Part shown: in pieces, positions 6,420 through 26,895 of the stretch
Position numbering within the stretch: the first letter of the stretch is position 1
Layout of the letters: every line of letters starts with the position of its first letter
NCBI RefSeq assembly: GCF_011089895.1
Contig: NZ_JAANAT010000001.1
Coordinates: 310,001-374,000, forward strand
Length of the DNA: 64,000 nucleotides
DNA from: Mucilaginibacter inviolabilis
GTDB lineage: Bacteria > Bacteroidota > Bacteroidia > Sphingobacteriales > Sphingobacteriaceae
Direction of reading: 5' to 3'
The notes under the pieces: generated by a model
What the model saw: only the letters and a program-made list of their open reading frames with translations
The model's database searches: none
What the model was told of the DNA's origin: nothing
Translations under genes and position numbers: made by a program

Positions 6420-6464
6420 ATTAAGGGAATATTAACTTTTTTTTAATGGGCTGGCTGTTATTTG
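6420..6464 (+). promoter_or_regulatory. Triple heptamer array (11-bp period) plus TTATTTG box before the GH43 gene
   Basis: ATTAAGG starts at 6420, ATTAACT at 6431 and TTTAATG at 6442, exactly 11 bp apart. TTATTTG begins at 6458, 9 bp after the last heptamer, and the GH43 start codon is 67 bp further on. The same arrangement precedes the SusC genes at 7864 and 16961. I infer a SARP-type activator site overlapping a promoter. Confidence 0.65.
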
Positions 6465-6530
6465 CTCGTGAGTTGATGAGCTAAATCGGCTGAGCCTGAT
6501 AAATTAAATTCAAGTAATATTCTATATAAT

Positions 6531-7484
6531 ATGAAAATAAATACACAAACATTTGCGGGACTATCCCTAGTTATTTACCTCTTTTTTCCGTTGGCGGGTA
6601 AGGCACAAAACCCTATTATTCGAAATATTTATACAGCAGATCCATCTGCCCATGTTTGGAGTGATGGAAGGCTATATGTTTATCCATCTCATGATGTTGA
6701 CCCTCCGCGAGGATGCGACCTGATGGATAAATACCATGTGTTTTCTACGGATGATATGGTACACTGGAAAGACCACGGTGAGATACTTAACGCAAGCGAC
6801 GTAGCCTGGGGGCGGAAAGAGGGTGGTTTTATGTGGGCACCCGATTGTGCCTATAAAAATGGTAAGTATTATTTTTATTTCCCGCATCCTAGTGGAACGG
6901 ACTGGAATAAAACCTGGAAGGTTGGGATTGCTACCAGCACAAAACCTGCTAGTGGTTTTGTGTCACAAGGATATCTTGATCTGGGCGATGACAGTCGCTC
7001 TATGATTGACCCTTGTGTGTTCGTTGATGACGATGGTCAAGCTTATTTTTATTACGGCGGTGGTGGCAGATGTGTTGGTACAAAGTTAAAAAGTAATATG
7101 ACGGAAATAGCTGAACCATTGAAAACAATGGATGGCCTAAAGGATTTCCATGAGGCCACCTGGATATTCAAGAGAAATAATATTTATTACCTGACGTATG
7201 CAGATAACCATACCGAAAATGGCAAAGGAGCCAACAGGCTCAATTACGCCACAAGCAAAAGCCCTCTTGGGCCTTGGACTTATGGCGGTGTTTATCTGGA
7301 GCCAACAGGTTGTGATACCAGTCATGGCTCTGTGGTTGAGTATAAAGGTGAATGGTATGCTTTTTATCACAATAGCGTATTATCAGGTCGTGGAAATTTA
7401 CGGTCGGTTTGTGTCGATAAGTTGAATTTTAATGAAGACGGATCAATACAAAAGGTAATTCAAACGGGTATGCTAAGTCAGTAG
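6531..7484 (+). CDS. Secreted glycoside hydrolase family 43 enzyme
   Basis: The protein has 317 residues. A signal peptide ends at GKA before Gln26, so it is exported and not a lipoprotein. It shows the five-bladed propeller signature of GH43: catalytic base candidate Asp37 in YTADPSAHVW, the pKa-modulating Asp160 in MIDPCVFVDDDG, and general acid candidate Glu208 in FHEATW. GH43 enzymes act mostly as arabinofuranosidases, xylosidases or galactosidases; the exact specificity cannot be read here. It has its own heptamer array upstream and a strong terminator downstream, so it is probably a single-gene unit co-regulated with the PUL that follows rather than with the lipoproteins before it. Confidence 0.88.
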   Translation: MKINTQTFAGLSLVIYLFFPLAGKAQNPIIRNIYTADPSAHVWSDGRLYVYPSHDVDPPRGCDLMDKYHVFSTDDMVHWKDHGEILNASDVAWGRKEGGFMWAPDCAYKNGKYYFYFPHPSGTDWNKTWKVGIATSTKPASGFVSQGYLDLGDDSRSMIDPCVFVDDDGQAYFYYGGGGRCVGTKLKSNMTEIAEPLKTMDGLKDFHEATWIFKRNNIYYLTYADNHTENGKGANRLNYATSKSPLGPWTYGGVYLEPTGCDTSHGSVVEYKGEWYAFYHNSVLSGRGNLRSVCVDKLNFNEDGSIQKVIQTGMLSQ

Positions 7485-7529
7485 TAACATTTTATACTCC
7501 ATCAATTAGTTTAATCCGCGTTTTTATAA

Positions 7530-7571
7530 AAATGCCCCCTTTAATGTTTTTTAAAAGGGGGCATTTTTTAT
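7530..7571 (+). terminator. Rho-independent terminator after GH43 gene
   Basis: AAATGCCCCCTTT on the left pairs with AAAGGGGGCATTT on the right around a short AT-rich loop, followed by a T run. It lies about 45 bp after the GH43 stop codon. Confidence 0.88.
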
Positions 7572-7769: not shown

Positions 7770-7814
7770 ATTAATCTGTTATTAAGATTTTATTAATGCC
7801 CGAGAGGTTATTTA
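7770..7814 (+). promoter_or_regulatory. Triple heptamer array (11-bp period) plus TTATTTA box before SusC
   Basis: ATTAATC at 7770, ATTAAGA at 7781 and ATTAATG at 7792 are exactly 11 bp apart. TTATTTA begins at 7808, 9 bp after the last heptamer, and the SusC start codon is 50 bp downstream. Spacing is identical to the array before the GH43 gene. The rest of the 7572-7769 interval holds nothing else I recognise. Confidence 0.65.
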
Positions 7815-7863
7815 CTCCTAGTTAAATAAACCAATTTTTTATAACCCAAATTTTCAATAGAGC

Positions 7864-10800
7864 ATGAAAAGATTTTTATGTATACTGTTGGTATGCTGTA
7901 TAACATGGAGTAGTTACGCCGCAGCCACGCACTTAAAAGGCAAATATGCCTCGGCCGTTGCGCCTATAAATGGTAAAGTTAAGGATAGTAAAGGTGTGCC
8001 GCTGCCTGGCGTATCTATAAAAGTACAGGGAAGTAATACCATCGCCTTAACTGATGCTAATGGTGCGTTTAAAATAGATGCCCCGACAGGCGCCACACTG
8101 ATATTCACTTATGTTGGTTTCGAAGACCAGAAAGTAGTTTTTAACGGACAAGCTTCCCTGGACATTACCTTGATTGATAAAACCATTGGTTTAAATGAGG
8201 TGGTTGCTGTAGGTTATGGTATTCAACAGAAAAGGGATGTGACCGGAGCTACTAGTTCTGTTACCGCCAAAGAGATAGCCAAACGGCCATTGGTTAGGGT
8301 AGAGCAGGCCTTACAAGGTACCACAGCAGGGATAACTGTATCCAGTAATAGTGGTCAGCCAGGTGCAGGCTTAAGCGTAAAAATACGAGGAGCCAATTCA
8401 ATCACCGGGTCTACAGAGCCTTTATATGTTATAGATGGTTATATTGGTGGCAGTATCGAATCGATAAGTCCAAGCGATATCCAGTCACTGGAGATATTGA
8501 AGGATGCATCCGCAACAGCCATCTACGGTTCACGCGGTGCCAATGGTGTGGTACTCATCACCACCAGGAGCGGTAAATCAGGCAAACCTATCATCAATAT
8601 CAATACCTGGTTCAGTAAAGCAAGCGTACCTAAAGAGCTAAGTTTGATGAATGCTTATGATTTTGCCCGTACCTTAAATGCACAGTACGCCACAACCGGT
8701 AATCCACCCGCGTTTTCTGATGCTGATTTGGCCAATTTTAAAAATAACCCAGGTACCGATTGGCAAAAAGCCGTGCAGCAAAAGCCATGGATCAGAAGCT
8801 ATCAGGGTGATATATCAGGGGGCAGTGATAATGTGAATTACCTGGTATCATTCAACCATCTTGATCAGCCTGGTTTGATTCTTAACCAGTACTATAAAAG
8901 AACCACGCTGCGAGCCAACCTGGGTATTAAACTGAATGACCGGATGGATTTGAAAGTGAACCTTACCGCCCTACTACCACAAAGTCGTAATACAGGTTAT
9001 GCGGGTGATATCACCGATCCGTTTGCACAAGCCAGTCAATGGGATCCTACTTCACCTGTGCGTGATGCCAGTGGCAACTATATCTTAAGATCCCAGTATG
9101 CATCAAACCAAATAAATCCGGTGGCTCAGGCCAATAATCAACAGGTAGATGTAAGTACTACTAATATAACCGGTACCGGTGTATTTACCTACCGTATAAC
9201 TAATGATCTGACTTTGACATCCAATAATACCTATGAAAATCAATCACAATTAACCCAAACATTGTATGGTTTACAAACCAGTTTGGGTCTGGTAGGAGGT
9301 GATTATGCTGCTGCAGCTACCGGTAGGTATCGTGCTTATCAAACAAGCGATTTCTTAACGTATAAGAAAAAGTTGGGCGATCATGCATTAACGGTTACCG
9401 CATTATATGAGTTTCAAAACCATCAGAATACCAATATTAATGCACAATCAAAAAATTTGTCCACCTATGCTTTGGGCTATTATAACCTAGGCCTGGGTAC
9501 CACACAACTTACTACATCGGGGTATTATCAGGATGCCCTACAATCGTTCATGGGCAGGGTTAATTACGCCTATAAAGATAAGTACCTGTTGACAGCTAGT
9601 TTACGTTCTGACGGCTCGTCGCATTTGGTTCAAAAATACAGTACTTTTCCATCCCTAGCATTTGGCTGGAATGCTGCACGCGAAAGTTTTATTGAAAAAT
9701 GGAATGTTTTCTCTGACTTAAAATTACGTGCAAGTTGGGGTAAAACCGGTAACCAGGCTGTAGCTCCCTATGCTACTATCCCGCAATATGTAACTGGCGG
9801 GGCAGCTTATTACTTTGATGGTACAACGCCATCAATCAGTACCCCGTTGGGTACGCCGGTATCTAATACTTTGAAGTGGGAAACCACCACTACTACGGAT
9901 GCGGGTTTAGATATGTCGTTTTTTAAAGGCCGTTTAACATTAACCGTTGACGCTTATCAAAAAAAGATCAACAATTTATTATACGCTAAACAAGTGCCTG
10001 CTTATGACGGAGGAGGTACCTATTTAGCTAATATCGGTAGTTTGGAGAATAAAGGTATTGAGTTTGCTTTAGGCGGAACACCATTAGCCGGGAAGCTGCA
10101 TTGGTCTACCAATTTTACCATATCATTTAATAAAAACAGAATTACCAGTTTAGGCGGCGATGACAACATTGTGGTAAACAATATTGGTTCGGCACAAACC
10201 GGAGTATCCATATTAAAAGTAGGTATGCCATTGGGTGAGTTTTATGGTTATCAGTTTTTAGGTACCTGGAAAACGAGCGAAGCTGCACAGGCCGCACAAT
10301 TTGGTATGAAACCCGGTGATGCTAAATATACCGATGTAAACGGTGACCATAAATATACTGGTGCTGATTTGATGCCTATTGGTAATGGCACACCTAAATA
10401 TAGTTTCGGCTTTATTAACGATGTAAGCTATGGTAATTTTACCTTGAGTTTTATGTTCCAGGGGACACATGGCAACCAGATCTACAGCGGTACCATTCCT
10501 TATACTTTAGGTGGTTTGGGTGATGCTCGTAATGCTACATCCACAACCGCGCTCAATATTTGGACACCAACAAATCAAACCAATAACCCTACATTCAGTA
10601 GCACTAGTCAGAATTTTATCAATAGCAGTCGCTTTGTTTACAACGCAAGCTATATCAAGCTCAAAAACCTGTCATTGGGTTACACTATACCTACCAGCAT
10701 TTTAAATCGCGCAGGGTTTAAAAGTGTAGAAGTTTATGTGAGCGGGCAAAATATCTGGACGATTACCAAATACCCAGGCTATGATCCGGAAGTTTCTAAC

Positions 10801-10887
10801 TCAACTAATGCTATTACACAAGGTTTAGAAACAGGCGTTATACCTAATCCCAAAACCTATACATTGGGTTTAAGGGCCACATTATAA
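7864..10887 (+). CDS. SusC/RagA-type TonB-dependent outer-membrane transporter
   Basis: The protein has 1007 residues with a signal peptide of about 20 residues. An N-terminal CarboxypepD_reg-like domain (about 35-110, KVKDSKGVPLPGVSIKVQGS) is followed by a TonB-box-like EVVAVGYG near residue 115, a plug domain (IRGANSITGSTEPLYVIDG; GSRGANGVVLITT) and a long beta-barrel ending TLGLRATL. It has no STN domain, so it is not expected to signal through FecR. It imports oligosaccharides released at the cell surface in complex with the SusD encoded 39 bp downstream. The heptamer array upstream suggests control by the regulator at 13926-16532. Confidence 0.95.
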   Translation: MKRFLCILLVCCITWSSYAAATHLKGKYASAVAPINGKVKDSKGVPLPGVSIKVQGSNTIALTDANGAFKIDAPTGATLIFTYVGFEDQKVVFNGQASLDITLIDKTIGLNEVVAVGYGIQQKRDVTGATSSVTAKEIAKRPLVRVEQALQGTTAGITVSSNSGQPGAGLSVKIRGANSITGSTEPLYVIDGYIGGSIESISPSDIQSLEILKDASATAIYGSRGANGVVLITTRSGKSGKPIININTWFSKASVPKELSLMNAYDFARTLNAQYATTGNPPAFSDADLANFKNNPGTDWQKAVQQKPWIRSYQGDISGGSDNVNYLVSFNHLDQPGLILNQYYKRTTLRANLGIKLNDRMDLKVNLTALLPQSRNTGYAGDITDPFAQASQWDPTSPVRDASGNYILRSQYASNQINPVAQANNQQVDVSTTNITGTGVFTYRITNDLTLTSNNTYENQSQLTQTLYGLQTSLGLVGGDYAAAATGRYRAYQTSDFLTYKKKLGDHALTVTALYEFQNHQNTNINAQSKNLSTYALGYYNLGLGTTQLTTSGYYQDALQSFMGRVNYAYKDKYLLTASLRSDGSSHLVQKYSTFPSLAFGWNAARESFIEKWNVFSDLKLRASWGKTGNQAVAPYATIPQYVTGGAAYYFDGTTPSISTPLGTPVSNTLKWETTTTTDAGLDMSFFKGRLTLTVDAYQKKINNLLYAKQVPAYDGGGTYLANIGSLENKGIEFALGGTPLAGKLHWSTNFTISFNKNRITSLGGDDNIVVNNIGSAQTGVSILKVGMPLGEFYGYQFLGTWKTSEAAQAAQFGMKPGDAKYTDVNGDHKYTGADLMPIGNGTPKYSFGFINDVSYGNFTLSFMFQGTHGNQIYSGTIPYTLGGLGDARNATSTTALNIWTPTNQTNNPTFSSTSQNFINSSRFVYNASYIKLKNLSLGYTIPTSILNRAGFKSVEVYVSGQNIWTITKYPGYDPEVSNSTNAITQGLETGVIPNPKTYTLGLRATL

Positions 10888-10926
10888 TTCACTAACCTAA
10901 TAGCTTTCTATATAAATTATAAAAAG

Positions 10927-12471
10927 ATGAAAACAAGATATTCAATGATCGTAGCCTTATTTGGGGTTATATCTATATTCAGCTGCAAAAAACAGCTTAC
11001 AGAAAACCCAAAAGGTAACCTTACACCAGTTAACTACCTCAAAACACAGGCCGACCTGGATGCCGCGGTGGCATCTATTTATGCCAAATATGCAGTTGAT
11101 GGTGCTTATGCATTTACCAATAAAAGCACCTCTTATTTTGGTGCGGATGATTTAACTACTGATCCCGGACTTAATAAGGGAGATATGCGGGCTTTTGACG
11201 AATTAAACGGCAGTAGTACCAATTCCAGTATGCTGGCACAATGGAACGGCCCATGGACTGCCATTTACCAGGCCAATAACGTGATCACCAATTACGCGCA
11301 GGTAAATTCAACTGATGATTTAAAGCGTAAGGCAGCAGGGCAGGCTTACTTTTTACGTGCCTGGGGATATTATAACTTGGTGCGAACTTTTGGGGGCGTA
11401 CCCCTGGTTGATAAATTAATCTCGGTTAATGACAGGCCGCCCCGTGCCAGTGTTAGCGATATTTACAATTTGATCATCAGCGATCTGAAAATTGCTAAAA
11501 GCTGGTTGCCCGTTAGCTATAATGATCCTAAGCAAATAGGCAGAGCAAATCAAATGGCGGCAAGGGCCATGTTGGCCGATGTATATTTAACCATGGCCGG
11601 CTGGCCGTTAAAGCAAACCGCTAATTACGCCCTAGCTGCCTCAGAAGCCGATACTGTTATTAGATCTGGAAATTATAATCTGATGAGCAGTTATGCTTCT
11701 GTATTTACAACTAACAATAATTCTGAATCCATATTCGGCCTTCAATTTAATGTTAGTGGGGGCTCGCCAAATCGTACCTATGGATCATCAAGTGTACCTT
11801 TAGATGAAGTGGCGGCAGATGGGTCAGGTGGTTGGGATGATTATTATCCCGAAATAAACTTCTTTTTGAATGCACCCAAATGCGACCGTACCGATGCCAC
11901 TTTTTACACTACGCTTAAATTGAGGCAAGGGTCTGGTAACAACATCACTTTTAAACTGGTTCCCTGGAATTCACCCGAAACACATGCCGGCCATCCATAT
12001 TACAAAAAATTCAGAGCTGGTGTGGGCGATGGGGTAATTGAAACGGCAAATGCCATACAATCTATTAATCCAAGCACCAATAAAACTACAGATATTATCA
12101 GATACCCTTTGGTACTGCTGGATTATGCCGAAGCACAGGCCATGTCAGCAGGTGGGCCATCGGCTGCGGCTTATGCCGCTGTTAACCAGGTGAGAACGAG
12201 AGCCGGTTTGCCCAATTTGCAAACAGGATTGTCGGCCACTGATTTTCAAAAAGCCGTTGTGAATGAGCGCGCTTATGAATTTGCAGGCGAGTTTGGGATA
12301 CGCTGGTTTGATATTGTACGATTACAACTGCTGTCTGAAGTTATAGCAGCACGTGCCAGTAACGAAAACCCGATAAACTTTACCGGGGATATCACCCAGC
12401 GTTATCTGGCGCCAATACCTCAAAACGATATATATATTAACTCATCCTGGTCACAAAATCCAGGCTATTAA
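10927..12471 (+). CDS. RagB/SusD family nutrient-binding lipoprotein
   Basis: The protein has 514 residues with lipobox Cys20 (IFSC). The SusD pattern is clear: an N-terminal TPR-rich part (DLDAAVASIYAKY; AAGQAYFLRAWGYYNLVRTFGGVPLV), and the C-terminal NERAYEFAGEFGIRWFDIVRL and YLAPIPQNDIYIN motifs typical of RagB/SusD. It caps the SusC barrel and binds the glycan at the surface. It is paired with the preceding SusC gene. A hairpin with a weak T tract follows within 26 bp, so transcription into the downstream GH99-like gene may be reduced rather than stopped. Confidence 0.95.
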   Translation: MKTRYSMIVALFGVISIFSCKKQLTENPKGNLTPVNYLKTQADLDAAVASIYAKYAVDGAYAFTNKSTSYFGADDLTTDPGLNKGDMRAFDELNGSSTNSSMLAQWNGPWTAIYQANNVITNYAQVNSTDDLKRKAAGQAYFLRAWGYYNLVRTFGGVPLVDKLISVNDRPPRASVSDIYNLIISDLKIAKSWLPVSYNDPKQIGRANQMAARAMLADVYLTMAGWPLKQTANYALAASEADTVIRSGNYNLMSSYASVFTTNNNSESIFGLQFNVSGGSPNRTYGSSSVPLDEVAADGSGGWDDYYPEINFFLNAPKCDRTDATFYTTLKLRQGSGNNITFKLVPWNSPETHAGHPYYKKFRAGVGDGVIETANAIQSINPSTNKTTDIIRYPLVLLDYAEAQAMSAGGPSAAAYAAVNQVRTRAGLPNLQTGLSATDFQKAVVNERAYEFAGEFGIRWFDIVRLQLLSEVIAARASNENPINFTGDITQRYLAPIPQNDIYINSSWSQNPGY

Positions 12472-12496
12472 TCACCAGAATGTTGTCTCAGTAAAG

Positions 12497-12532
12497 AATG
12501 CTCATCCGTGTGTGAAATTGCGGATGGGCATT
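12497..12532 (+). terminator. Hairpin (attenuator or weak terminator) after SusD gene
   Basis: AATGCTCATCCG pairs with CGGATGGGCATT (one G-T pair) around a 12-nt loop, followed only by TTG. The 12-bp stem is strong but the T tract is poor, which fits partial termination or 3'-end stabilisation of susCD mRNA. Confidence 0.6.
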
Positions 12533-12573
12533 TTGAATGTAAACTAATAACCTAAATAAAACCTCATGCAATT

Positions 12574-13857
12574 ATGAAAAAGATACACTTTACAGTGGCG
12601 TATTTTTTAATGTTAAGTGTAGCTGTCTGCGCACAAACCAAACACTCAAAAATTACCCATTACCCCACTTATCATGGCCTGGTGATGGCTGGCTATCAGG
12701 GCTGGTTCAGGGCCGAGGGCGATGGTACAAAATCTGGCTTCAGTCATTACTTTGCTTCAGAAAGTCATTGCGGCGTTGATGCCTGGCCCGATGTAAGCGA
12801 GTACACCAATACTTATACTACCCCATTTAAACTGGCAGATGGAAGCAATGCCAAGCTATTCAGCTCGCACGATAAAAGTACGGTTGATCTGCATTTTAAG
12901 TGGATGCAGCAATACGGTGTTGATGGCGTTTTTATGCAGCGTTTCATGGGCTATGCCAAAAACGTAAGAGATCGCCATGAAACAGGTGTGGTAATTAAGA
13001 ACGCGTTGGATGCAGCCTCAAAATATAACAGGGCTATTGCCATCATGTATGACCTTTCAGGGCTTAATGCCACAGGTGAAGATTGTTCGGCCATTATAGC
13101 TGACTGGAAATATCTGGTTGATTCATTAAAAGTGACCAATCAGCCTGGTAATAAAACATATTTGAACAATAACGGTAAACCTGTAGTGGCCATCTGGGGG
13201 CTGGGTTTTCCGGATAGGCCTTATAACATCCGTAATATCGGTATCATGAAACTGATAGATTTTTTGAAGAACGATCCTGTTTACGGTGGCTGTGCAGTGA
13301 TGCTGGGAGTTCCCACTTTTTGGCGCGAGCTGAATGCTGATTGTTTGAATGATCCGTTTTTACATGAAGTGATCAAGCAGGCAGATATTGTTTTGCCTTG
13401 GACAGTGCAGCGATTTTCGCCCTTGCTGCACAATGATATGGATCGTTATCGCGATTTGATGATCGGTGACATGCAATGGTGCAAAGCCAATCATCTGGAA
13501 TACGTGCCTTGCGTTTATCCTGGCTTTAGCTGGCATAACCTGAGTACCTATGAATTTCCGGATGATGTAAAACCTGTAGCATCTATACCACGACAGGGTG
13601 GCCGTTTTTATTGGCAGCAGATATCTACCGCATTACAAGCAGGGGCCTCCATGCTTTATGTAGCCATGTTTGATGAGGTTAATGAAGGTACCGCTATATT
13701 TAAGGTGACTGATAAACCACCTGTGAGTAATAGCGCCAAATTCATTGATATGGATGGCAAACCCAGCGATCACTATTTATGGCTAACCGGCGAAGCCGCC
13801 AAAATGCTGCGTAATGAGAAGCCATTGAGCTATACCATGCCCGTACGTACTAATTAA
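12574..13857 (+). CDS. Secreted GH71/GH99-like glycoside hydrolase
   Basis: The protein has 427 residues with a signal peptide ending near VCA-Q. It begins its domain with HGLVMAGYQGWF, the hallmark of the Bacteroidota GH71/99-like family, continues with a TIM-barrel pattern (HFKWMQQYGVDGVFMQRFMG; PVVAIWGLGF; YVPCVYPGFSWHNL) and ends with MFDEVNEGTA. Glu368 and Glu371 in DEVNE have the E-x-x-E spacing of the catalytic pair in GH99 endo-alpha-mannosidases, so activity is plausible. The substrate is not proven: an alpha-mannoside or another alpha-glycan are options. It follows the first SusC/SusD pair and faces the regulator gene across a bidirectional terminator. Confidence 0.82.
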   Translation: MKKIHFTVAYFLMLSVAVCAQTKHSKITHYPTYHGLVMAGYQGWFRAEGDGTKSGFSHYFASESHCGVDAWPDVSEYTNTYTTPFKLADGSNAKLFSSHDKSTVDLHFKWMQQYGVDGVFMQRFMGYAKNVRDRHETGVVIKNALDAASKYNRAIAIMYDLSGLNATGEDCSAIIADWKYLVDSLKVTNQPGNKTYLNNNGKPVVAIWGLGFPDRPYNIRNIGIMKLIDFLKNDPVYGGCAVMLGVPTFWRELNADCLNDPFLHEVIKQADIVLPWTVQRFSPLLHNDMDRYRDLMIGDMQWCKANHLEYVPCVYPGFSWHNLSTYEFPDDVKPVASIPRQGGRFYWQQISTALQAGASMLYVAMFDEVNEGTAIFKVTDKPPVSNSAKFIDMDGKPSDHYLWLTGEAAKMLRNEKPLSYTMPVRTN

Positions 13858-13890
13858 TCATTACGCCCAAAAGCTTAATTAGTAATGTTG

Positions 13891-13924: not shown

Positions 13925-13925
13925 A

Positions 13926-16873: not shown

Positions 16874-16917
16874 GTTAAGGAATGTTTAAGGTTTCATTAA
16901 GGATTACGATTTATTTA
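16874..16917 (+). promoter_or_regulatory. Triple heptamer array (11-bp period) plus TTATTTA box before second SusC
   Basis: GTTAAGG at 16874, TTTAAGG at 16885 and ATTAAGG at 16896 are exactly 11 bp apart and agree in TTAAGG. TTATTTA begins at 16911, 8 bp after the last heptamer, and the SusC start is 44 bp downstream of the box. This is the most regular of the four arrays. Confidence 0.7.
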
Positions 16918-19900: not shown

Positions 19901-20197
19901 CAAACCTATTGGCAGCAAACCAACCACATATCGCATTTATATACTTATGATGCCTCCTATGTAAAACTATCGCAGGTAATTATAGGCTATTCATTACCAT
20001 CAAGACTGCTGAGAGGTACGCCGTTCAGATTGGCTACGCTATCATTAGTGGGGCGTAACCTATGGACAATCTTTCAGAAAACGCCGCGTGGTATCGATCC
20101 TGAATCTGCTGCTTATTCGAGCAATGCCCAGGGACTTGAAGTGGGCGGATCGCTTCCTTATGCAACCTATGGTGTCGACTTAAAATTCTCGCTATAA
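16961..20197 (+). CDS. SusC/RagA-type TonB-dependent outer-membrane transporter
   Basis: The protein has 1078 residues with a signal peptide ending SSFA-Q at about 20. The CarboxypepD_reg-like domain (KVIDETGVPLPGVTVTLKQT) spans about 24-100, then a TonB-box-like EVVISAL, a plug (IRGANSITGNNQPLWVVDGVPID; NAAALYGSKAANGAILITTKKG) and the beta-barrel ending GVDLKFSL. There is no STN domain. This is a different subgroup from the SusC at 7864: a longer barrel and a SusD of the SusD-like_2 type. Only 4 bp separate its stop from the SusD start, which implies co-transcription and probable translational coupling. The upstream heptamer array links it to the SARP-like regulator. Confidence 0.95.
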   Translation: MKKLLCILCLTWMALSSFAQSHVIKGKVIDETGVPLPGVTVTLKQTQRRTVSDKDGIYSLDLGNLSGNVLVFSFVGYQAQEVSTTGKTVIDIKLLPDSKDLSEVVISALNIPRAKKSLGVAQQSVNVNEMTEARAGNITDLLDGKVSGLQISTSGQPTGSTKVQIRGANSITGNNQPLWVVDGVPIDNNDSNGQVGNLDYGNNAADLNPDDIESMEVLKGPNAAALYGSKAANGAILITTKKGKKNAGMGISVNSNYMASRVLQFPEFQNVYGEGGNGRLSGTLVGPLGSGVIQAGTGGGRNWGVPMLGQPYLTFDGKQTTYSPNPETVTGLYKVGGASSQNVAFSNATDNSAIRFSYTRYDANDVVQKQNQVAKNNFQLNTSKDFTPFIKIETRLQYIQERVTNRTYRNEDPANPLNYLINAVTSIPLSSLIPWKDANGNAFNGGGNGSIENPYWDINENGNQDIHNTIIGGVTATIKIFKDLQFRAQESGNLLWGNRYTFIQKGSLSNINGSYTEFQQNNKIWNTEGLLMYNKRISDFSIVANVGGNLRKTDYYNTSAGTSSLAVHDVRSLANTTSIITANESFLRSQVNSVYGTANFGYKDFLYLDLTGRNDWSSTLPPANASFFYPSASASFVFTELWKSISPNFLNFGKIRASIARVGNDTSPYNLYNAFVNSGNFNGINYMTFESQLKNKNLKPELTTSTELGLELHFMNNRLSIDADVYKSKTVNQLLTGNTPPEFGFTTQILNAGEIQNKGVEVTLTGTPIRTKNFSWDATYNFSLNRNLVKSLTPGIPSVYLGGAVTAGVYAEVGKPIGVIRAQDQAYSSDGHAIINPTTGIPYFTTVNPIVGYASPRALMSFGSNFRYKNFSFNFLVSSRIGGSLFSGTGYRYFISGVATQTLGGRDAWLFSDGVLGENANEQNGITSIYNLPYPAAGRVKGSIYQGYYPVLGSNGQPIVDANGNYVANLSAPNTKYISPQTYWQQTNHISHLYTYDASYVKLSQVIIGYSLPSRLLRGTPFRLATLSLVGRNLWTIFQKTPRGIDPESAAYSSNAQGLEVGGSLPYATYGVDLKFSL

Positions 20198-20201
20198 AAT
20201 C

Positions 20202-21926
20202 ATGAAAAAGATCATCATATATTCAACGGTATTGCTTATTGCTTTTGCCGTATCCTGTACTAAGGATTTTACCAATATCAATACGAATCCGGCCAGTTTC
20301 CCGTCGGCGGCGCCAGAGGCTGTATTAACGGGGGCCTTTGTAAATACCATTAACAAGTTTGAATCCAATAATGTGATTTTCCTATGGGAATACTCACATT
20401 TGATTGACCCAGCCGGGCGTTATCTTGGCGGTGACGACGGTGGTGGAGCCACTTGGACCTTGCTTTATGCCAATGTATTAGGGTCTACACGTCAGCTTAA
20501 AAAACTATACCTGGGCAATCCTGCTTATACTAACCGAATGGCTATTACCGATATATGGGAGTGTTATGTATATACTTACTTGGTAGGTTGTTATGGGCCC
20601 ATACCTTATGATAACGCAGGCAAAACAGATAACAGCGATGTAGAGTATAACGACGAGAATAGTATTTATACCTCATTACTTACCCGTCTGAAAGCTGATG
20701 CTGCCGCCATCAACCCTTCGGGTGATAAGTTTAACCCCGATGTGATATACAATGGCGATATGACCAAATGGGTAAAATTTGCCAATACCCTGCGACTGCG
20801 TATTGCTTTAACTGTGCAAAATAACCTGCCAGACCTGGCTGCTGCCAATATTCGTGAACTGATGACTAACGAAAACTCGTTAATTGGCTCAGACGCAGAT
20901 GATCCTAAACTAACCTATGGCACAGCTACAGGCAGTCAATCACCTTATAACGTGATGTTGGTACAGGGTACATCCTACCAGGGCACGGCCACACCTGTTA
21001 TGAGCGATTATGTGTTCACTTATTTCCGTTCCTATCATGATCCGCGCCTGGATGCCTATTTTAACAAGGCTGCAACGCCTTTTAATATTCAGGATACGCT
21101 GACAAGTAGAAAGGACAACCTTCATTATGTGGTCGTTTATCCTATTCCGCATTTGGGGCAACCCAAGTCACCGGCGCTTTTAAGTCAATGGGGACTTCAA
21201 AATCCACCCTTTGCCGGATCTACGGTACCGGTTAATTTTAGTACCCTGCCATCGGCGTTAACGGCTGCCACCAGGCCATTTTATATGATGACCTACGCAG
21301 AGGTGTGCTTTATGAAGGCTGAAGCGGCTCAGCGAGGCTATGGAGGGTCGCAAACAGCCGATCAATATTATTATGCAGGTATCAATGCAAATTTTGCTTT
21401 TTGGGGATTAACACCTGCCCAGGCTGCCGCCTACCAGGCACAGGGCGGCATTAAATGGGGTACTGCAGGTAAAGGGTTTAATTATGATCTGGGTTTTATC
21501 AATACCAGCACCCCGGCTGATAACCTAACCAAAATATGGATACAGGAGTGGATAAACTTTTTTGACGATGAAGCCTTTGAAGCCTGGGTATTACAACGCC
21601 GCACACGCAATTTAGTACTGCCACCGCATACCAACCCGGGTAGCGTTAACGTGCTCACTACTTACTCCAACCTTAATGACCGATGGATTTATCCTATCAA
21701 GAATGAGGTTCAAAACAATCCTATAGGTAATGCCAATGGAGTAAAACTATTGGGCGGCGGCGATTATGTATTTACCCCTCTAAAAATAGAACCCCAATAT
21801 ACCCCAACCGACTGGACAAAGGCACATGCTTTTGTGGACCTGAGCTTTGTCCAAAAGTGGTATGGTAATAACATTGAAGACCTTACCGCGGCAGGTATAA
21901 AGTATACCGTACTATCTACTTATTAA
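20202..21926 (+). CDS. SusD-like outer-membrane nutrient-binding lipoprotein (SusD-like_2 type)
   Basis: The protein has 574 residues with lipobox Cys19 (AVSC). It begins TKDFTNINTNPASFPSAAPEAVLTGAF and has TDIWECYVYTYLVGCYGPIPY, YMMTYAEVCFMKAEAA and IWIQEWINFFDDEAFEAW, which fit the SusD/RagB nutrient-binding family usually paired with the longer SusC subgroup. It forms the lid of the transporter encoded just upstream. It is followed after 14 bp by another lipoprotein gene, so the SusC-SusD-lipoprotein trio is probably one transcript. Confidence 0.93.
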   Translation: MKKIIIYSTVLLIAFAVSCTKDFTNINTNPASFPSAAPEAVLTGAFVNTINKFESNNVIFLWEYSHLIDPAGRYLGGDDGGGATWTLLYANVLGSTRQLKKLYLGNPAYTNRMAITDIWECYVYTYLVGCYGPIPYDNAGKTDNSDVEYNDENSIYTSLLTRLKADAAAINPSGDKFNPDVIYNGDMTKWVKFANTLRLRIALTVQNNLPDLAAANIRELMTNENSLIGSDADDPKLTYGTATGSQSPYNVMLVQGTSYQGTATPVMSDYVFTYFRSYHDPRLDAYFNKAATPFNIQDTLTSRKDNLHYVVVYPIPHLGQPKSPALLSQWGLQNPPFAGSTVPVNFSTLPSALTAATRPFYMMTYAEVCFMKAEAAQRGYGGSQTADQYYYAGINANFAFWGLTPAQAAAYQAQGGIKWGTAGKGFNYDLGFINTSTPADNLTKIWIQEWINFFDDEAFEAWVLQRRTRNLVLPPHTNPGSVNVLTTYSNLNDRWIYPIKNEVQNNPIGNANGVKLLGGGDYVFTPLKIEPQYTPTDWTKAHAFVDLSFVQKWYGNNIEDLTAAGIKYTVLSTY

Positions 21927-21940
21927 TCAATAACAGACAT

Positions 21941-23071
21941 ATGAAAAAGAAATATATATATCGTTACAGCCTGTTGATATTGTTAATGTCAGTAGAGCTA
22001 TTATCTTGTAAAAAAAACGATCCAAGTGTAAAAGATAATTTTTTGAATTACCAAATACCAGATGTCCCTGTAACATCCAACTATACGGTAGGGGCATTTT
22101 ATTATAGTTTTACTACCCTTAATGCCAATGTTGCACAAATACCAACTGTGGGTAAATATGGCTATACCAACGGCTTGCCTCCTGATGGAGTAATGCAGCA
22201 ACACATTGTCGACGCTGGCATTGCAAAAATTGATTACTTTATATTCTCGGTACGTTCACCCTCGCTTGATACCAAAAATTACCTGATCGATTCAACCACT
22301 GTAAATGCGTTTTTGACTGCGCCCAATAGCGCAGGTATAAAATTTGCGCTTTCCTATAATCTCAATACCGGTTTGTTAGGTATCACCAATTCGGGCGGTA
22401 CTACAGGTAATGGAGTAACCATTGAAACCTCCCCATCAAAACTAACGGCATTTTATAATGATTTTAAAAGGCTCGCTTTTTTTCTGGGTAAAGCCAATTA
22501 TCAAAAAGTTAACGGCAAATACCTGCTCATCATTAACAACGCGCAGGATTTGAACTCAAATGATAATGTAGCATTGTATAAACAGCTGCGAGCTAATTTA
22601 TCGGCTCTGGGTTTCGACCTGTATATTGTGGGGATGCAAAACCGTTGGTCGCCGCCAGAACGTTATTATTATCGTTTCCAAAACTGTACCGATGCCATGT
22701 ACGAAGCCAATATGGGCGATGTGGCCGGGGATAATGATCGTTATTGGAATTTTCCCCAATATACCGATCAGAATTGGGCTTACTGGAAAAAGACCATTGA
22801 GGCCTGGAACATGGAGTTTGTACCCTGCGTAATGGCTGGCTATAATTATCAAATCAATAATCCAACAACCAACCAACTCAGCGTTCAACGTACTGCTGAT
22901 GGCAGCTGGTACAAAACGTTTACTAATGTAGCCAAACGTAATGCGTCCAAAAGCAGGCTCATCTTTGTCGACTCTTTTAATAATTTTTCGGTCGATTCAC
23001 AAATTGAGCCTACACAAGCTTATGGCTATACTTACCTGGATATTACCCGACAAGCTTTTAAATTGAACTAA
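21941..23071 (+). CDS. GH99/WbsX-like lipoprotein lacking the acidic pair, probable surface glycan-binding protein
   Basis: The protein has 376 residues with lipobox Cys23 (LLSC). The fold reads like GH99/WbsX TIM-barrel proteins: VGAFYYSF near the start, IDYFIFSVRSPS, GKYLLIINNAQDL, FVPCVMAGYNY and a C-terminal segment SRLIFVDSFNNFSVDSQIEP then YGYTYLD. In the family this segment is N-E-W-x-E-G; here residues 347-352 are N-N-F-S-V-D, so both Glu are replaced (Asn348, Val351). A catalytically dead, glycan-binding role fits its place directly after SusC/SusD, where SusE/SusF-like proteins usually sit. Family assignment is by motif reading only. Confidence 0.65.
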   Translation: MKKKYIYRYSLLILLMSVELLSCKKNDPSVKDNFLNYQIPDVPVTSNYTVGAFYYSFTTLNANVAQIPTVGKYGYTNGLPPDGVMQQHIVDAGIAKIDYFIFSVRSPSLDTKNYLIDSTTVNAFLTAPNSAGIKFALSYNLNTGLLGITNSGGTTGNGVTIETSPSKLTAFYNDFKRLAFFLGKANYQKVNGKYLLIINNAQDLNSNDNVALYKQLRANLSALGFDLYIVGMQNRWSPPERYYYRFQNCTDAMYEANMGDVAGDNDRYWNFPQYTDQNWAYWKKTIEAWNMEFVPCVMAGYNYQINNPTTNQLSVQRTADGSWYKTFTNVAKRNASKSRLIFVDSFNNFSVDSQIEPTQAYGYTYLDITRQAFKLN

Positions 23072-23078
23072 ATAAAAC

Positions 23079-23111
23079 AGCAGCAGACGGGCAGATGGCG
23101 TGTCTGCTGCT
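23079..23111 (+). terminator. Hairpin after the GH99/WbsX-like gene
   Basis: AGCAGCAGAC at 23079-23088 pairs perfectly with GTCTGCTGCT at 23102-23111 (13-nt loop). No T run follows. It is a partial terminator or mRNA-stabilising hairpin between the susCD trio and the GH2 gene. Confidence 0.55.
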
Positions 23112-23153
23112 CATAGCATCCGGAGTGATGCAACATAACATTGATATCTACTA

Positions 23154-26100
23154 ATGAACGTACTTACAAAAGCTTTAAGCACACTGATACTGTTTGGTTT
23201 TACTGGCGGCAGTTTATACGCACAAGATAATAGCCTAACTGAAAATTTTGAAAATCCTGGTCACCAGTATGAAAAAACAGGTCGTGGCGAATGTCATGTT
23301 GCCAATGGGATATTAACTACCAAAGACGCATATATAAGTTTTGGCGATGCCGATTGGAAGAATTATGAGATCAGTTTCAAAGCGAGGGTGCCGGATACCG
23401 CCAAACAGGTTCAGATATGTGCCGGTTTTAGGGCCGGAAACCGCGATGACCGGTATATGCTGATGCTTAAAGGAGGAATCCAGCAGGATATTTACTTGGC
23501 CCGATTGGGGTATATGGGTAGTGATGATTTCCTGGCGCTGCGCCACTTGGATTTTCATCCAGAACCTGGTAAGTGGTATAATTTCAGGGTGCAGGTAAGC
23601 GACAAACGGATCAGGGTGTTTTTAAACAATGAAAGTTTACCTCGTATTGATATTGTTGACTCACTAGCATATCTGTCGCCACAGGGTAAGGTAACCCTGG
23701 GCGGTAGTTGGATCACTAACCAGTTTGATGATCTGGTTATTAAACCGATGCGGGAGGATCAACTGAAAAGCAACCGTATACAAGAATATGCTGTAACTGT
23801 AAAAGATAAGGAGGCTTTACGCAAACAGCAACGTGCTACTTATAAGCCGGTTTCTGTAGAACAATTAGCAGGTGGGCGTACTCTTGTTTCTCTTAATGGT
23901 AAATGGCTGTTTTCACCAGGGTATGAAATCACAGATCAGACGAAAGCGGTCTTACCCGAAGAGAACGATAAAAACTGGCATATATTAACCATTCCCAATT
24001 TTTGGAATCCCATACGTGTTTGGTTGCATGGCGAAAAGTACAACAACGACAGCAAGGGTGTGGCAGATAACTATTATCAGAAAGAAACTGAGCGTTGCGA
24101 GGCCTATACTTTTGATTACAAAAAAACAAGCGTAGGCTGGTATCGTCAATGGATCAATCTGCCAAACAACATTGGCGCCAAAAATCTGCAGCTTTCATTT
24201 GACGCCGTATCAAAAGTGGCCGAGGTGTATATCAATGGGCACAAGGCCGGGAGCCACATCGGTATGTTCGGCAATTTTGAAGTAGACGGTACAGGTCTGT
24301 TTAAATCCGGCAAAAATCTGGTTGCAGTAAAAGTGACCCGAGATTATGTAAAGGATATTAAAGATGCTGATAAAGTAATGGACGTTGCGGTCACTGTGCC
24401 TGTTACCCAGAAAATGATGAAGGACCTGGCGCATGGTTTTTTTGACGATGACCCGGCAGGCATCTGGCAGCCGGTATCGTTGATCATCACTGATCCGGTG
24501 CGCATACAGGATGTATTTATTAAGCCTAATCTCACGGGAGCTGATCTGGATATCACAGTAAAAAATTATACCGATAAAGGGGTGCCGTTTTCAATTGTCG
24601 CGGATATAAACGGTGTACAACCCAATGATGTATTGTATAATCATACGATACTTGATCAGCAGGAACTGAAACCAGGAGAGGAGCGAACCTTTACTGCGGC
24701 CATAACTGGTTTGCAACCCAGAATATGGTCGCCGGAACATCCCAATCTTTATGATTTTAATTTTAAGCTGACAACTACTAATAGGGATCTAACAGATTCG
24801 AAAATTATCCGTTCCGGTTTCCGGACCTTTAAGGCCGAAGGGGATTATCTGTATTTGAATGGCAAACGTTACTGGTTGCGGGGTGCCAATCAAACACCAC
24901 TTGGCTTGGCGCCTAATGATACCCTGCTGGCAGATACTTTTACTAAACTTATGAACAAGGGCAATATGATGGTTACCCGCACCCATACCGTTCCGGGTAC
25001 CGAAACCTGGATGGATGCCTTTGATAAAAACGGTATTGGTGTAAGTTATGAAGGCACCTGGTCGTGGTTGTTTCTGAGTAGCAGTATGCCCTCGCAAAAT
25101 CTCATCGATTTGTGGAAACAGGAATTTTATGATCTGTTAAAAAAATATCGCAATCATCCTTCATTATGGATCTGGACGGTAAATAACGAGATGAAGTTTT
25201 ATGATAACGACCCCGATACAGAGAGAGCAAAGATAAAAATGAAGATCATATCTGATGTGGTTAAACACATGCGGCTGATCGACCCTACACGCCCAATTGT
25301 GTTCGACTCCAACTATCGCCGCAATACCAAACGTTTCGGTGACGATTTTTATAAAGACATTGATGACGGGGATATCGACGATCAGCATGCTTACCTCAAC
25401 TGGTACGACTACTCTATATTTAGCTATTTTAAGGGAGAGTGGCAGCAAAGGTATAAAAATAATGGACGCCCGCTCATCAGCCAGGAAATGTCGACCGGTT
25501 ATACGGATGAAACAGGCCATGCCACCCGCTTCTATAATTATGTCCATCAAAACCCGGAGTCGCTGGCTGGTAAATTTACCTATGAATACAATGATCCTGC
25601 TTATTTTATGAAACCGCAGGCTTTTATTACCAAAGAGCTTGCCGAAGCCTTGCGTCGCAGCGATGATCGCTCGGCTGGGATATTACATTTTGCATTGATC
25701 ACCTGGTTTACCAATGTTTATCAACATGATCATATTAAGCCGTTCCCGGTATATTACGATATGCAAAAAGCCTTGCAGCCAGTGCTGGTATCAGCCGAAC
25801 TTTGGGGGCGGCACTTTTACACCGGTACCAAATTGCCCGTGCGTGTCTGTGTTATTAACGATCAGGAAAATGGCTCCGTATTACCCGCATCAACGCTGCA
25901 ATGGAAACTCACGGGAGATAAAGATATTGTACTGGCGAGCGGCAATATCGCCGTGCCACATGTTGATCATTACACCCGTCACTGGATAGAGCCGCAGATC
26001 AATATCCCCGAAAATCTACCCCGGCAAAAACAAGAGGCGCGGTTACAGTTGCAATTGATAGTCAATGGTAAAACTGTTTCTGAAAATAGTTATGAAGTAT

Positions 26101-26780
26101 TGTTGGCTACAAAACTTGGTCTGCGGACCGATAAGCTATCAGGTAAAAAGATAGCTGTATTTGACGTTAATGATCACATAACTACCGCGTTGAAATGTTT
26201 AGGCATTCAGTATACGGCTTCATCCACACTCACAAATGCGCTAAAACAAAAGGCAGATGTTTATTTGCTCTCAGGACTTGACTCTATAAACACCACAACT
26301 TCTGATCTTAAACAGATCAGGAAGCTGGTTCACGACGGAAGAAAAGTTTTGCTCTCTAGTTCTGGTGATATGGCACATGCTTTATATCCGGAATACATCA
26401 GGAGCGTACTTAAAGAAAGGAGTGAGATCGCTAATATCGATATCCCAGAATCCCCGGTATTTGATGGAATTGAACCTTTGGAAATGCGTTACCTAAATAA
26501 TAACCTGCGTGAAAGTCCATCGGTAGTATCGGGCGCTTACCGTATTAATCGTGATGCGCATGTGGAGGCACTGGCATCGTTTATAAAAATACATGGCTAT
26601 CTCTCTGGCAATGTTACCGAACGGATGCATGCACTTGATAAGATCAAAGGATTTCCCATTGTTAAAATAAACGATGATAGGGGAGCAGTATTGTTATCAG
26701 AAATCAGGCTCGATAAAGCAGTTACGGATCCTGTTGCAGGTAAATTATTGGTTAATATGCTGTTTGATTTAACCCGTTAA
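23154..26780 (+). CDS. Very large secreted GH2 enzyme with N-terminal LamG-like and C-terminal amidotransferase-like domains
   Basis: The protein has 1208 residues, longer than most GH2 enzymes, with a signal peptide ending LYA-Q at about 23. Residues about 25-200 form a LamG/DUF1080-like jelly roll (GNRDDRYMLMLKGG; WYNFRVQVSDKRIRVFLNNE). The GH2 core follows: sugar-binding domain from about 245 (SLNGKWLFSPG; VGWYRQWINLP), Ig-like domain, then TIM barrel. The acid/base candidate is Glu679 in WIWTVNNEM and the nucleophile candidate Glu778 in PLISQEMSTGY. Residues about 993-1208 look like a class I glutamine-amidotransferase-type flavodoxin fold without an evident Cys-His-Glu triad. GH2 specificities include beta-galactosidase, beta-mannosidase and glucuronidase; I cannot choose. 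It lies 3' of the second SusC/SusD group and is probably part of the same regulon. Confidence 0.82.
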   Translation: MNVLTKALSTLILFGFTGGSLYAQDNSLTENFENPGHQYEKTGRGECHVANGILTTKDAYISFGDADWKNYEISFKARVPDTAKQVQICAGFRAGNRDDRYMLMLKGGIQQDIYLARLGYMGSDDFLALRHLDFHPEPGKWYNFRVQVSDKRIRVFLNNESLPRIDIVDSLAYLSPQGKVTLGGSWITNQFDDLVIKPMREDQLKSNRIQEYAVTVKDKEALRKQQRATYKPVSVEQLAGGRTLVSLNGKWLFSPGYEITDQTKAVLPEENDKNWHILTIPNFWNPIRVWLHGEKYNNDSKGVADNYYQKETERCEAYTFDYKKTSVGWYRQWINLPNNIGAKNLQLSFDAVSKVAEVYINGHKAGSHIGMFGNFEVDGTGLFKSGKNLVAVKVTRDYVKDIKDADKVMDVAVTVPVTQKMMKDLAHGFFDDDPAGIWQPVSLIITDPVRIQDVFIKPNLTGADLDITVKNYTDKGVPFSIVADINGVQPNDVLYNHTILDQQELKPGEERTFTAAITGLQPRIWSPEHPNLYDFNFKLTTTNRDLTDSKIIRSGFRTFKAEGDYLYLNGKRYWLRGANQTPLGLAPNDTLLADTFTKLMNKGNMMVTRTHTVPGTETWMDAFDKNGIGVSYEGTWSWLFLSSSMPSQNLIDLWKQEFYDLLKKYRNHPSLWIWTVNNEMKFYDNDPDTERAKIKMKIISDVVKHMRLIDPTRPIVFDSNYRRNTKRFGDDFYKDIDDGDIDDQHAYLNWYDYSIFSYFKGEWQQRYKNNGRPLISQEMSTGYTDETGHATRFYNYVHQNPESLAGKFTYEYNDPAYFMKPQAFITKELAEALRRSDDRSAGILHFALITWFTNVYQHDHIKPFPVYYDMQKALQPVLVSAELWGRHFYTGTKLPVRVCVINDQENGSVLPASTLQWKLTGDKDIVLASGNIAVPHVDHYTRHWIEPQINIPENLPRQKQEARLQLQLIVNGKTVSENSYEVLLATKLGLRTDKLSGKKIAVFDVNDHITTALKCLGIQYTASSTLTNALKQKADVYLLSGLDSINTTTSDLKQIRKLVHDGRKVLLSSSGDMAHALYPEYIRSVLKERSEIANIDIPESPVFDGIEPLEMRYLNNNLRESPSVVSGAYRINRDAHVEALASFIKIHGYLSGNVTERMHALDKIKGFPIVKINDDRGAVLLSEIRLDKAVTDPVAGKLLVNMLFDLTR

Positions 26781-26866
26781 AGCGAATAATGGTTGTTTGC
26801 GAATAACTAATATGAGCCCTGGAATAAGTTATTTTAATATTAAAATACTATCAAAATATATAATCC

Positions 26867-26895
26867 ATTAAGCTTTTTTTAAGTATTGATTAATG
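26867..26895 (+). promoter_or_regulatory. Triple heptamer array (11-bp period) before the second GH99-like gene
   Basis: ATTAAGC at 26867, TTTAAGT at 26878 and ATTAATG at 26889 are exactly 11 bp apart. A clear TTATTT box is missing at the expected distance; AAATTAG stands at 26905. The gene it would serve starts 224 bp downstream, so the leader would be long. Confidence 0.5.

Follow-up and report, generated by a model that had tools for sequence, protein, structure and literature searches.

TTAA-centred heptamer arrays as probable activator sites of a membrane-anchored kelch-SARP regulator in a Mucilaginibacter PUL

The 64-kb window (the whole stretch of DNA analysed here) contains a PUL in which four gene starts are each preceded by three TTAA-centred heptamers, raising the question of which protein reads these arrays and whether it controls the locus. 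An earlier note had placed the heptamers precisely, and direct reading confirmed that its heptamer starts are exact in all four arrays, each lying one base 5′ of a TTAA, with a period of 11 bp throughout (Table 1). The TTATTTR box that it located 8–9 bp past the last heptamer is present for arrays 1–3 and ends in TTTA in the second and third. No clear −7 box could be read at the usual distance from array 4, whose direction is unsure because its counterpart in genome G033 (C24:257900), with a T-run TTTG, was detected on the other strand. Alpha-mannosides are the class of inducer suggested by the co-located GH92, GH99-like and related genes.

Table 1. Arrays, promoter-like boxes, genes and regulator domains in the window (positions are those of the window).
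Feature	Position	Strand	Context or basis
Array 1, three TTAA heptamers, 11-bp period	6420..6448	+	upstream of GH43 gene; TTAA starts 6421/6432/6443; read from letters
Array 1 −7-like box, gTTATTTG	6457..6464	+	TTATTTG start 6458; 9 bp past last heptamer, 10 bp past last TTAA
Array 2, three TTAA heptamers	7770..7798	+	upstream of first SusC; TTAA starts 7771/7782/7793; read from letters
Array 2 −7-like box, gTTATTTA	7807..7814	+	TTATTTA start 7808; 9 bp past last heptamer
Array 3, three TTAA heptamers	16874..16902	+	upstream of second SusC; TTAA starts 16875/16886/16897; read from letters
Array 3 −7-like box, TTTATTTA	16910..16917	+	TTATTTA start 16911; 8 bp past last heptamer, 9 bp past last TTAA
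Array 4, three TTAA heptamers	26867..26895	+ (direction unsure)	upstream of gene at 27120; TTAA starts 26868/26879/26890; read from letters
GH43 gene	6531..7484	+	Pfam PF04616
SusC, SusD, GH99-like genes	7864..13857	+	probable operon
SusC, SusD, WbsX/GH99-like, GH2 genes	16961..26780	+	probable operon
577-aa protein without Pfam match, GDSL/CE2 esterase genes	27120..30475	+	
Kelch-SARP regulator, 868 aa	13926..16532	−	
Signal helix, residues 2–26	16455..16529	−	predicted structure
Beta sandwich, residues about 33–235	15828..16436	−	LamG-like by reading of model strands
Kelch beta-propeller, residues about 245–549	14886..15800	−	Pfam and Foldseek kelch matches
Transmembrane helix, residues 565–590	14763..14840	−	helix in model; putative membrane role from sequence
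SARP domain, OmpR-type winged helix and BTAD-like helices, residues 631–868	13929..14642	−	predicted fold

The strict pattern TTAAN7TTAAN7TTAA matches four times in the window, at the four arrays only, against 0.14 expected from shuffles; with a downstream TTATTT there are three matches against 0.00 expected. Had the pattern been just as frequent in shuffled intergenic DNA of matched AT content, this would, as set beforehand, have counted against it; in the intergenic DNA of the window (6,001 bp, 68% AT), four arrays were observed against a mean of 0.03 and a maximum of 2 in 200 dinucleotide shuffles. The whole genome (7.15 Mb) holds 34 strict triples, of which 18 belong, by reading, to one other dispersed element, four lie in the window and 12 elsewhere. 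The probability of at least four triples within 24.1 kb is 4e-7 with a background of 17 and 7e-6 with all 34. TTAA is a frequent word in AT-rich DNA, but the whole-window and intergenic shuffles and the period controls speak against the arrays being a chance product of such DNA, an explanation that we regard as extremely improbable.

The protein encoded between the arrays had been called SARP-like, a label that agrees with the predicted fold of its C-terminal domain (pLDDT 89), for which AfsR is the first match. In a structure search, AfsR (8k60) ranked at the top (E 2.9e-7), and all six matches with E <0.001 were AfsR or EmbR chains. Structural comparison again placed AfsR best (Z 15.6, rmsd 4.7, 229 residues) and EmbR next, with a range of Z 14.3–15.6, rmsd 4.7–4.9 and 229–232 residues for the two. 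Pfam detected kelch-type models only: the beta sandwich has no Pfam LamG match, and neither BTAD nor Trans_reg_C matches the window regulator; among 32 members, four weakly match BTAD (best E 0.16) and two Trans_reg_C (best E 0.064), short of the Pfam cut-offs. A search of the regulator against NCBIfam and a profile search of PDB sequences gave no match. SARP membership rests on the predicted fold and the site geometry.

The geometry can be compared with the rule described for SARP sites in passages of PMC10936776 and PMC5930380, namely two or three heptamers separated by 4 bp, as direct repeats with a period of 11 or 22 bp whose last copy lies 8 bp from the −10 element (the last two points in PMC10936776). 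The earlier note had recognised this geometry, and the 11-bp repeats and the box distance of 8–9 bp in the window indeed match the rule as published in those passages of PMC10936776. Window arrays and those of relatives agree with this promoter rule; regulator clades E and F deviate in spacing.

The pairing of switch and repeats recurs in many other Bacteroidota, with a spacing that varies with the type of switch. The survey covered stretches of clades A–E, all chosen prior to any array inspection, and clade F, which consists of 10 g16 matches. The 40 clade-A stretches, from relatives in the genus, were hand-picked, with high scores favoured, from the 72 matches at 42% or more that lie in other genomes, and the 12 clade-E stretches from 54 such genomes in the same match list; clades B, C and D came from a separate list. 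Some stretches overlap or share one genome (L028 and L054). Sequence-identical arrays were kept in the period and spacing-by-clade counts and removed for the box-offset and promoter-position counts (from 53 to 52 in clade A). The 40 clade-A loci contain 53 arrays at period 11 and at most five at any other period from 6 to 19. Other TTAA combinations near clade-A arrays number 16 at 15+11, 12 at 11+12, 11 at 11+7 and five at 12+12. In Cytophagales, 36 arrays were found and 24 of 24 loci were positive; these rows are new and independent of the clade-A and clade-B period counts. The Mucilaginibacter and other-Sphingobacteriales rows of the same survey are not independent, since the stretches from L104 onward repeat many of clades A and B. 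By our own placement, three ‘Bacteroidetes bacterium’ MAGs (L111, L122 and L127) were grouped with Mucilaginibacter and one (L153) with other Sphingobacteriales. The earlier note had asked for array enrichment near SARP-like regulator genes, and co-occurrence of the two was found in both Sphingobacteriales and Cytophagales.

These arrays have the position of promoter elements: none of the 122 distinct arrays lies inside a long ORF (early start calls allowed for), and 112 have a start codon no more than 300 bp away, often that of a SusC, GH92 or GH99-like gene. Among 51 clade-A arrays oriented by their genes, 30 show NTTG/TTCG exactly 14 bp past the last TTAA, the next best offset having five. 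Strict 11+11 arrays are absent from eight of the 40 clade-A, three of the 19 clade-B, all five clade-C, two of the four clade-D and all three Chitinophagales loci. One-mismatch arrays in the strict-negative loci give a clear signal in clade A (17 at period 11 versus 1–9 at others), an unclear one in clade B (three at 11, but also three at 7 and 12) and a mixed one in clade C (seven at 11, nine at 8). Genus-wide, arrays followed by TTTR occur at 59.5 per 100 Mb in the 54 genomes with a relative of at least 42% versus 18.0 in the 95 genomes without (Mann-Whitney p about 1e-12, uncorrected for shared ancestry), the latter value standing against 8.6 for the reversed control.

The main spacing goes with the regulator clade: besides 11+11, it is 12+12 in 13 of 13 clade-E loci and 11+12 in 9 of 10 clade-F loci. 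Clade F has no array at 11+11 or 12+12, and its 11+12 spacing was recognised on reading its promoters, so this count is descriptive rather than blind. The clade-E count at the chosen loci is equally descriptive; the rule was, however, already in place before the genus-wide 12-bp scan, in which 53 of 55 genomes with a clade-E regulator had such an array versus 14 of 94 without (Fisher p about 1e-24, uncorrected for shared ancestry). Clades with 12+12 or 11+12 spacing also have a distinct box, TTAACCC. In a tree built by a quick method and showing long branches, the spacing-by-clade rule rests on few independent evolutionary changes.

In front of a −7 box, TTAA recurring about once per helical turn could in itself bend DNA, and the arrays might thus be phased A/T kinks, in the manner of curved or UP-element-like DNA, that boost promoters without a dedicated factor. 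This is highly improbable, given that strict triples number only 34 in 7.15 Mb and that arrays are linked to regulator presence; the 12-bp or mixed spacing and the different box of other clades further weigh against phasing. Somewhat less remote, but still improbable, is that the arrays are sites of an unrelated DNA-binding protein and merely adjoin the kelch-SARP gene. The link between arrays and regulator does rest on association, but the main spacing shifts from one regulator clade to another, the occurrence of arrays in a genome correlates with that of the regulator, and the sites have the geometry of SARP sites. Moreover, the array is kept where the clade-E regulator is unlinked (on another contig or more than 100 kb away): it was present at the orthologous SusC in all six genomes examined out of the 16 whose regulator has no array within 2 kb.

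The strongest competitor is a paralogue in the same genome (G000:C5, adjoining pheS), which could read the arrays alone or together with the window protein, the latter then being one of two regulators sharing a regulon. Both proteins belong to the period-11 group and are 48% identical, and arrays elsewhere in the genome, at GH92 (C1:1.27 Mb), GH99-like (C3) and DUF5703 (C5) genes, resemble those of the window. The paralogue has no array in its own 20-kb stretch (L019), the nearest strict one being about 22 kb off. Against this possibility, which we consider real but rather unlikely, the window regulator is kept within the same array-bearing PUL in two relatives at 84–85%, which argues for at least local control.

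The predicted fold and architecture, the SARP site geometry, the clade-wide co-occurrence and the clade-dependent spacing, all demonstrated here, support the earlier claim that the protein encoded at 13926–16532 reads the arrays and controls the PUL. On these grounds, the arrays are very probably activator sites of this kelch-SARP protein, a putative one-component membrane regulator. Its regulon probably reaches beyond the window to the GH92, GH99-like and DUF5703 genes elsewhere in the genome, and the paralogue may also use the same sites. Its putative topology is a periplasmic sandwich-plus-kelch sensor, a single membrane-spanning helix and a SARP domain at the cytoplasmic C terminus. Binding of a ligand, probably a product of mannoside breakdown, would align SARP domains side by side on the three heptamers, one helical turn apart. 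The last two heptamers would take about the position of the two AfsR repeats, over the −33 region between −40 and −19, and a bridge from the protein to sigma and RNA polymerase would let a weak promoter fire. We lean slightly towards the wider view that membrane SARP one-component sensors of inverted topology control PULs in at least two Bacteroidota orders, and that the site spacings of their clades diverged, the interface of adjacent SARP protomers being, in addition to base recognition, an evolvable specificity code that separates co-resident regulators.

The window regulator appears to have in common with the SARPs AfsR and PimR of Streptomyces a predicted winged helix plus BTAD fold. In contrast to these, its SARP domain forms the C-terminal end of a Bacteroidota protein that is anchored in the membrane, has a kelch sensor and has PUL targets, and its sites are TTAA-centred heptamers with a TTATTTR/TAnnTTTG-type box and include 12+12 and 11+12 clades. 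HTCS of Bacteroides PULs are likewise one-piece membrane regulators of PULs, and they have propeller sensors. They combine histidine kinase, receiver and AraC-type domains in a single protein, which ends in the AraC-type helix-turn-helix. Passages of PMC3878776 give their predicted sites as a pair of repeats with a mean distance of 21 bp; this identity was rejected on site spacing and domains (kelch-type Pfam matches only and a SARP-like C-terminal fold). SusR-like regulators also act on PULs through direct-repeat sites, in their case a pair of operators at a distance of 67 or 77 bp in the same passages (PMC3878776), and were rejected since the window has three sites 11 bp apart. Structural matches of the SARP domain include TcpP (Z 8.0 over 93 residues) and CadC (7.1 over 92). 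ToxR, TcpP and CadC carry a membrane-anchored OmpR-type winged helix, with the DNA-binding domain N-terminal, cytoplasmic and ahead of the membrane helix. The models of the window regulator give the reverse topology, with helices at 2–26 and 565–590 and a C-terminal winged helix from residue 631, followed by a BTAD-like part, and do not correspond to the ToxR/CadC order.

Among the open-licence papers listed, judged by titles and abstract openings, none dealt with SARPs in Bacteroidota or in PULs, in agreement with the earlier statement that no described Bacteroidota PUL regulator was known to have such sites; the word SARP is absent from the main text of PMC9723704 and PMC3878776. The published site rules that we found concern gut Bacteroides (passages of PMC3878776), and for environmental Bacteroidota the arrays provide a cis-regulatory code of PULs, from which regulons, unlinked members included, become predictable from DNA alone. 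They would extend the SARP mode of activation, from antibiotic clusters of actinomycetes, to another phylum and to probable sugar sensing, and the different site spacings, each with its matching regulators, form a natural series for asking how SARP protomers pack on DNA.

Regulation by ECF sigma/anti-sigma pairs likewise carries a membrane signal to a PUL promoter; the array-bearing genes scanned at 6.4–30.5 kb included neither a sigma nor a FecR gene. An ECF sigma/anti-sigma pair is encoded farther along the window, at 36077–37929.

The four arrays of three TTAA-centred heptamers that the earlier note had located in the window were read directly in the sequence, where their positions proved exact and the 11-bp period is present in all four; a pattern scan likewise bore out a TTATTT at a fixed distance from three of them. 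These arrays are the sole window matches of TTAAN7TTAAN7TTAA, for an expectation of 0.14 from shuffles. The comparison with shuffled intergenic DNA that the earlier note had proposed, made on the 6,001 intergenic bp of the window (68% AT), gave 4 observed matches; 200 shuffles averaged 0.03 and never exceeded 2.

Arrays, regulator genes and neighbouring features in the Mucilaginibacter inviolabilis genome (G000; C, contig; L, extracted DNA stretch; the window is C1:310001-374000)
Feature	Coordinates	Genes and context
Array 1	window 6420/6431/6442 (heptamer starts)	downstream: GH43
Array 2	window 7770/7781/7792	downstream: SusC-SusD-GH99-like
Array 3	window 16874/16885/16896	downstream: SusC-SusD-WbsX/GH99-like-GH2
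Array 4	window 26867/26878/26889	downstream: 577-aa protein of no assigned family, GDSL/CE2 esterase
Array with correctly placed box	C1:1271927	precedes GH92
Array with correctly placed box	C3:627626	precedes GH99-like, then GH3
Array with correctly placed box	C5:30509	precedes DUF5703
Kelch-SARP regulator (868 aa)	window 13926-16532 (-)	
48% identical paralogue	G000:C5:5799-8330 (L019)	near phenylalanyl-tRNA synthetase and CreD
12+12 TTAA triple	window 16553-16580	~20 bp upstream of the regulator's start codon
Four TTAA boxes, 12-bp period	G000:C4:230553-230592 (L206:4554-4593)	between 442-aa and 477-aa ORFs
Separate SusC/SusD locus, without strict array	window 36077-42983	sigma-70 region 4 protein, FecR protein
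Upstream SusC/SusD genes, without strict array	window 59-6366 and L023	phosphodiesterase/DUF4983, PA14 and PKD/F5-F8 proteins

The arrays sit in promoter positions: no long ORF contains any of the 122 distinct arrays (allowing for early start calls), and a start codon is present within 300 bp of 112 of them. Among 51 clade-A arrays (loci of the genus encoding relatives at least 42% identical to the regulator) oriented by gene and not by box, 30 carry NTTG or TTCG exactly 14 bp past the last TTAA, the runner-up offset reaching 5; the box-oriented consensus is aTTAATnaaTtnTTAAtnnTTtaTTAAt-n9-tTtaTTTg. With this -7 box set at -12 to -5 after the flavobacterial TAnnTTTG box, as described in an excerpt of PMC9723704, our arithmetic puts heptamers 2 and 3 at about -38 to -32 and -27 to -21. 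The repeats of AfsR lie at -40 to -30 and -29 to -19; by the published rule, SARP repeats have a spacing of 11 or 22 bp, the final one being 8 bp from the -10 element (excerpt of PMC10936776); PimR has three heptamers with 4-bp spacers (excerpt of PMC5930380).

Arrays and regulator occur together well beyond this genome. The 40 clade-A stretches (720,535 bp) contain 53 TTAA triples at period 11 versus 0-5 for every alternative period in the range 6-19. Clade B, with 19 stretches that belong to other genera of the family, contains 22, and no alternative period between 6 and 23 exceeds 3. In Cytophagales (24 stretches, one without assignment and the others from Dyadobacter, Larkinella and Spirosoma), all 24 loci have arrays, 36 in total, with 0-2 at other periods. 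Fourteen more stretches (13 Sphingobacteriales and one without assignment, overlapping partly with the 19) gave 19 arrays in 10 loci, and three Chitinophagales stretches gave no strict array. Among loci without strict arrays, the one-mismatch evidence is mixed: period 11 leads in eight clade-A loci (17 versus 1-9 at other periods, 7-16) and the three Chitinophagales loci (3 versus 0-1), as it does in four clade-D loci (5 versus 0-3), two of which also have strict arrays; three clade-B loci have 3 at period 11 and the same count at 7 and 12, and five clade-C loci have 7, fewer than the 9 at period 8, an array with TTAT as third box being common to all five. In a comparison of 149 genomes within the genus, the 54 with the regulator have array plus TTTR 59.5 times per 100 Mb and the 95 without it 18.0 times; a reversed control gives 5.5 and 8.6, respectively.

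The dominant spacing follows the regulator clade. Period-12 arrays of TTAACCC-type boxes, 13 in total, occur in all 13 loci of clade E (25-27% identity), with no period-11 array and with the -7 box 2 bp more distant from the array. TTAACCN6TTAACCN6TTAA is present in 53 of 55 genus genomes with a clade-E regulator versus 14 of 94 without, and in 39 of the 55 an array lies within 2 kb of the regulator gene. From the 16 others, we took six cases in which the regulator gene either is on a different contig or lies over 100 kb off; in each of them the array is upstream of a SusC gene whose product is 66-70% identical to clade-E SusC (in one, L200, an early start called by the ORF finder overlaps the array), and the site therefore tracks the target gene, not merely the neighbourhood. 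Clade F (10 loci of genus g16, 30-34% identical to clade E) has 11+12 spacing, with 14 arrays in nine loci and every other spacing at most once. Five of its stretches (L190-L193 and L196) each have a further 11+12 triple, built of TTAATC-type boxes, in L190 upstream of a 174-aa ORF. Surplus TTAA combinations exist in clade A (16 at 15+11, 12 at 11+12, 11 at 11+7 and 5 at 12+12, versus 53 at 11+11), Cytophagales (10 at 15+11 and 8 at 11+12, versus 36) and clade E (7 at 12+14, 6 at 11+9 and 6 at 9+12, versus 13), so that it is the dominant spacing to which the rule applies. A tree built from the C-terminal domain separates E, and likewise F, from all other loci by a single branch (SH-aLRT 96 and 95). 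The remaining tree loci with a strict array of the three kinds all have 11+11 except L091, which has 12+12 and 11+12 only; L090 has no strict array, and L090 and L091 each have a one-mismatch 11+11 array.

Domain searches and structure prediction divide the regulator into an N-terminal signal-peptide-like helix, a beta sandwich that we read as LamG-like, a kelch propeller and a membrane-type helix (565-590), followed by a C-terminal domain that starts at residue 631. In the full-length model (mean pLDDT 78.5, pTM 0.58) the propeller matches kelch proteins in a structure search. The C-terminal part does not reach Pfam cut-offs; its model from a 32-sequence alignment (mean pLDDT 89.3) has only six PDB matches with E below 0.001, all AfsR or EmbR chains (AfsR: Z 15.6, rmsd 4.7, 229 residues), and single winged-helix proteins score lower (e.g., TcpP, 8.0 over 93 residues). 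The closest named relatives are from Mucilaginibacter sp. SG564 (85%) and M. lappiensis (84%), own-genome records being possibly left out. The genome encodes two further such proteins, 48% and 25% identical, and a domain-profile search revealed no additional copies at E up to 1. No PUL adjoins the 48% paralogue, the nearest strict array being ~22 kb off, upstream of the DUF5703 gene.

We are highly confident that the kelch-SARP family reads the arrays, and less so that the window protein alone reads those of the window, because of the C5 paralogue. Most likely, a glycan fragment would be bound by the periplasmic sensor part, the cytoplasmic SARP domains would then line up next to one another along the heptamer triple, over the -33 region, and the assembled domains would recruit RNA polymerase in the manner of AfsR; we infer the ligand, activation rather than repression, the membrane topology and the protomer number.

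The first genes behind the arrays received their labels from BLAST searches against a small set of reference genes. In clade A (51) these are SusC (16), GH92 (12), GH99-like (8), DUF5703/GH95-like (3), GH43, GH2 and unk577 (2 each), GDSL and regulator (1 each) and unlabelled genes (4), and GH99-like and GH92 genes are present in 31 and 25 of the 40 loci, respectively. Since GH92 and GH99 act on alpha-mannosides, we propose mannan or a mannose-rich glycan as the clade-A inducer. The other sets comprise, in clade B (22), 8 unlabelled, 4 GH92, 3 GH99-like, 2 SusC and 5 others; in Cytophagales (35), 11 GH92, 11 SusC, 7 unlabelled, 3 regulator, 1 GH99-like and 2 with none within 500 bp; in clade E (13), 12 SusC and 1 GH92; and in clade F (14), 13 unlabelled and 1 with none.

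The regulator resembles SARPs in predicted fold and in site geometry, and ToxR/CadC have a sensor topology opposite to the one proposed here. Among the entries listed by literature searches, nothing relevant was found on SARPs in Bacteroidota or in PULs. Its target genes put the regulator in the same job as HTCS and SusR, whose predicted sites consist of two repeats, on average 21 bp apart for HTCS and 67/77 bp apart for SusR (excerpt of PMC3878776).

Other TTAA patterns were also observed. By our count, a dispersed intergenic element accounts for 18 of the 34 strict triples in the 7.15-Mb genome. Its TTAA words are spaced 10-11-11 bp, around TTAAAATGGCGTTAAAATTTAGTTAA; it is present in both orientations (e.g., L001:1501, L009:1501 and L213:3121) and may be either the site of another regulator or a small repeat element. 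The 12+12 triple upstream of the regulator gene may be due to chance, because 6 of 100 shuffles contain one, or may be a point of autoregulation or cross-regulation. Overlapping 12-bp triples, as in the four-box element on C4, are present in another genome (G124) and in stretch L205 too.
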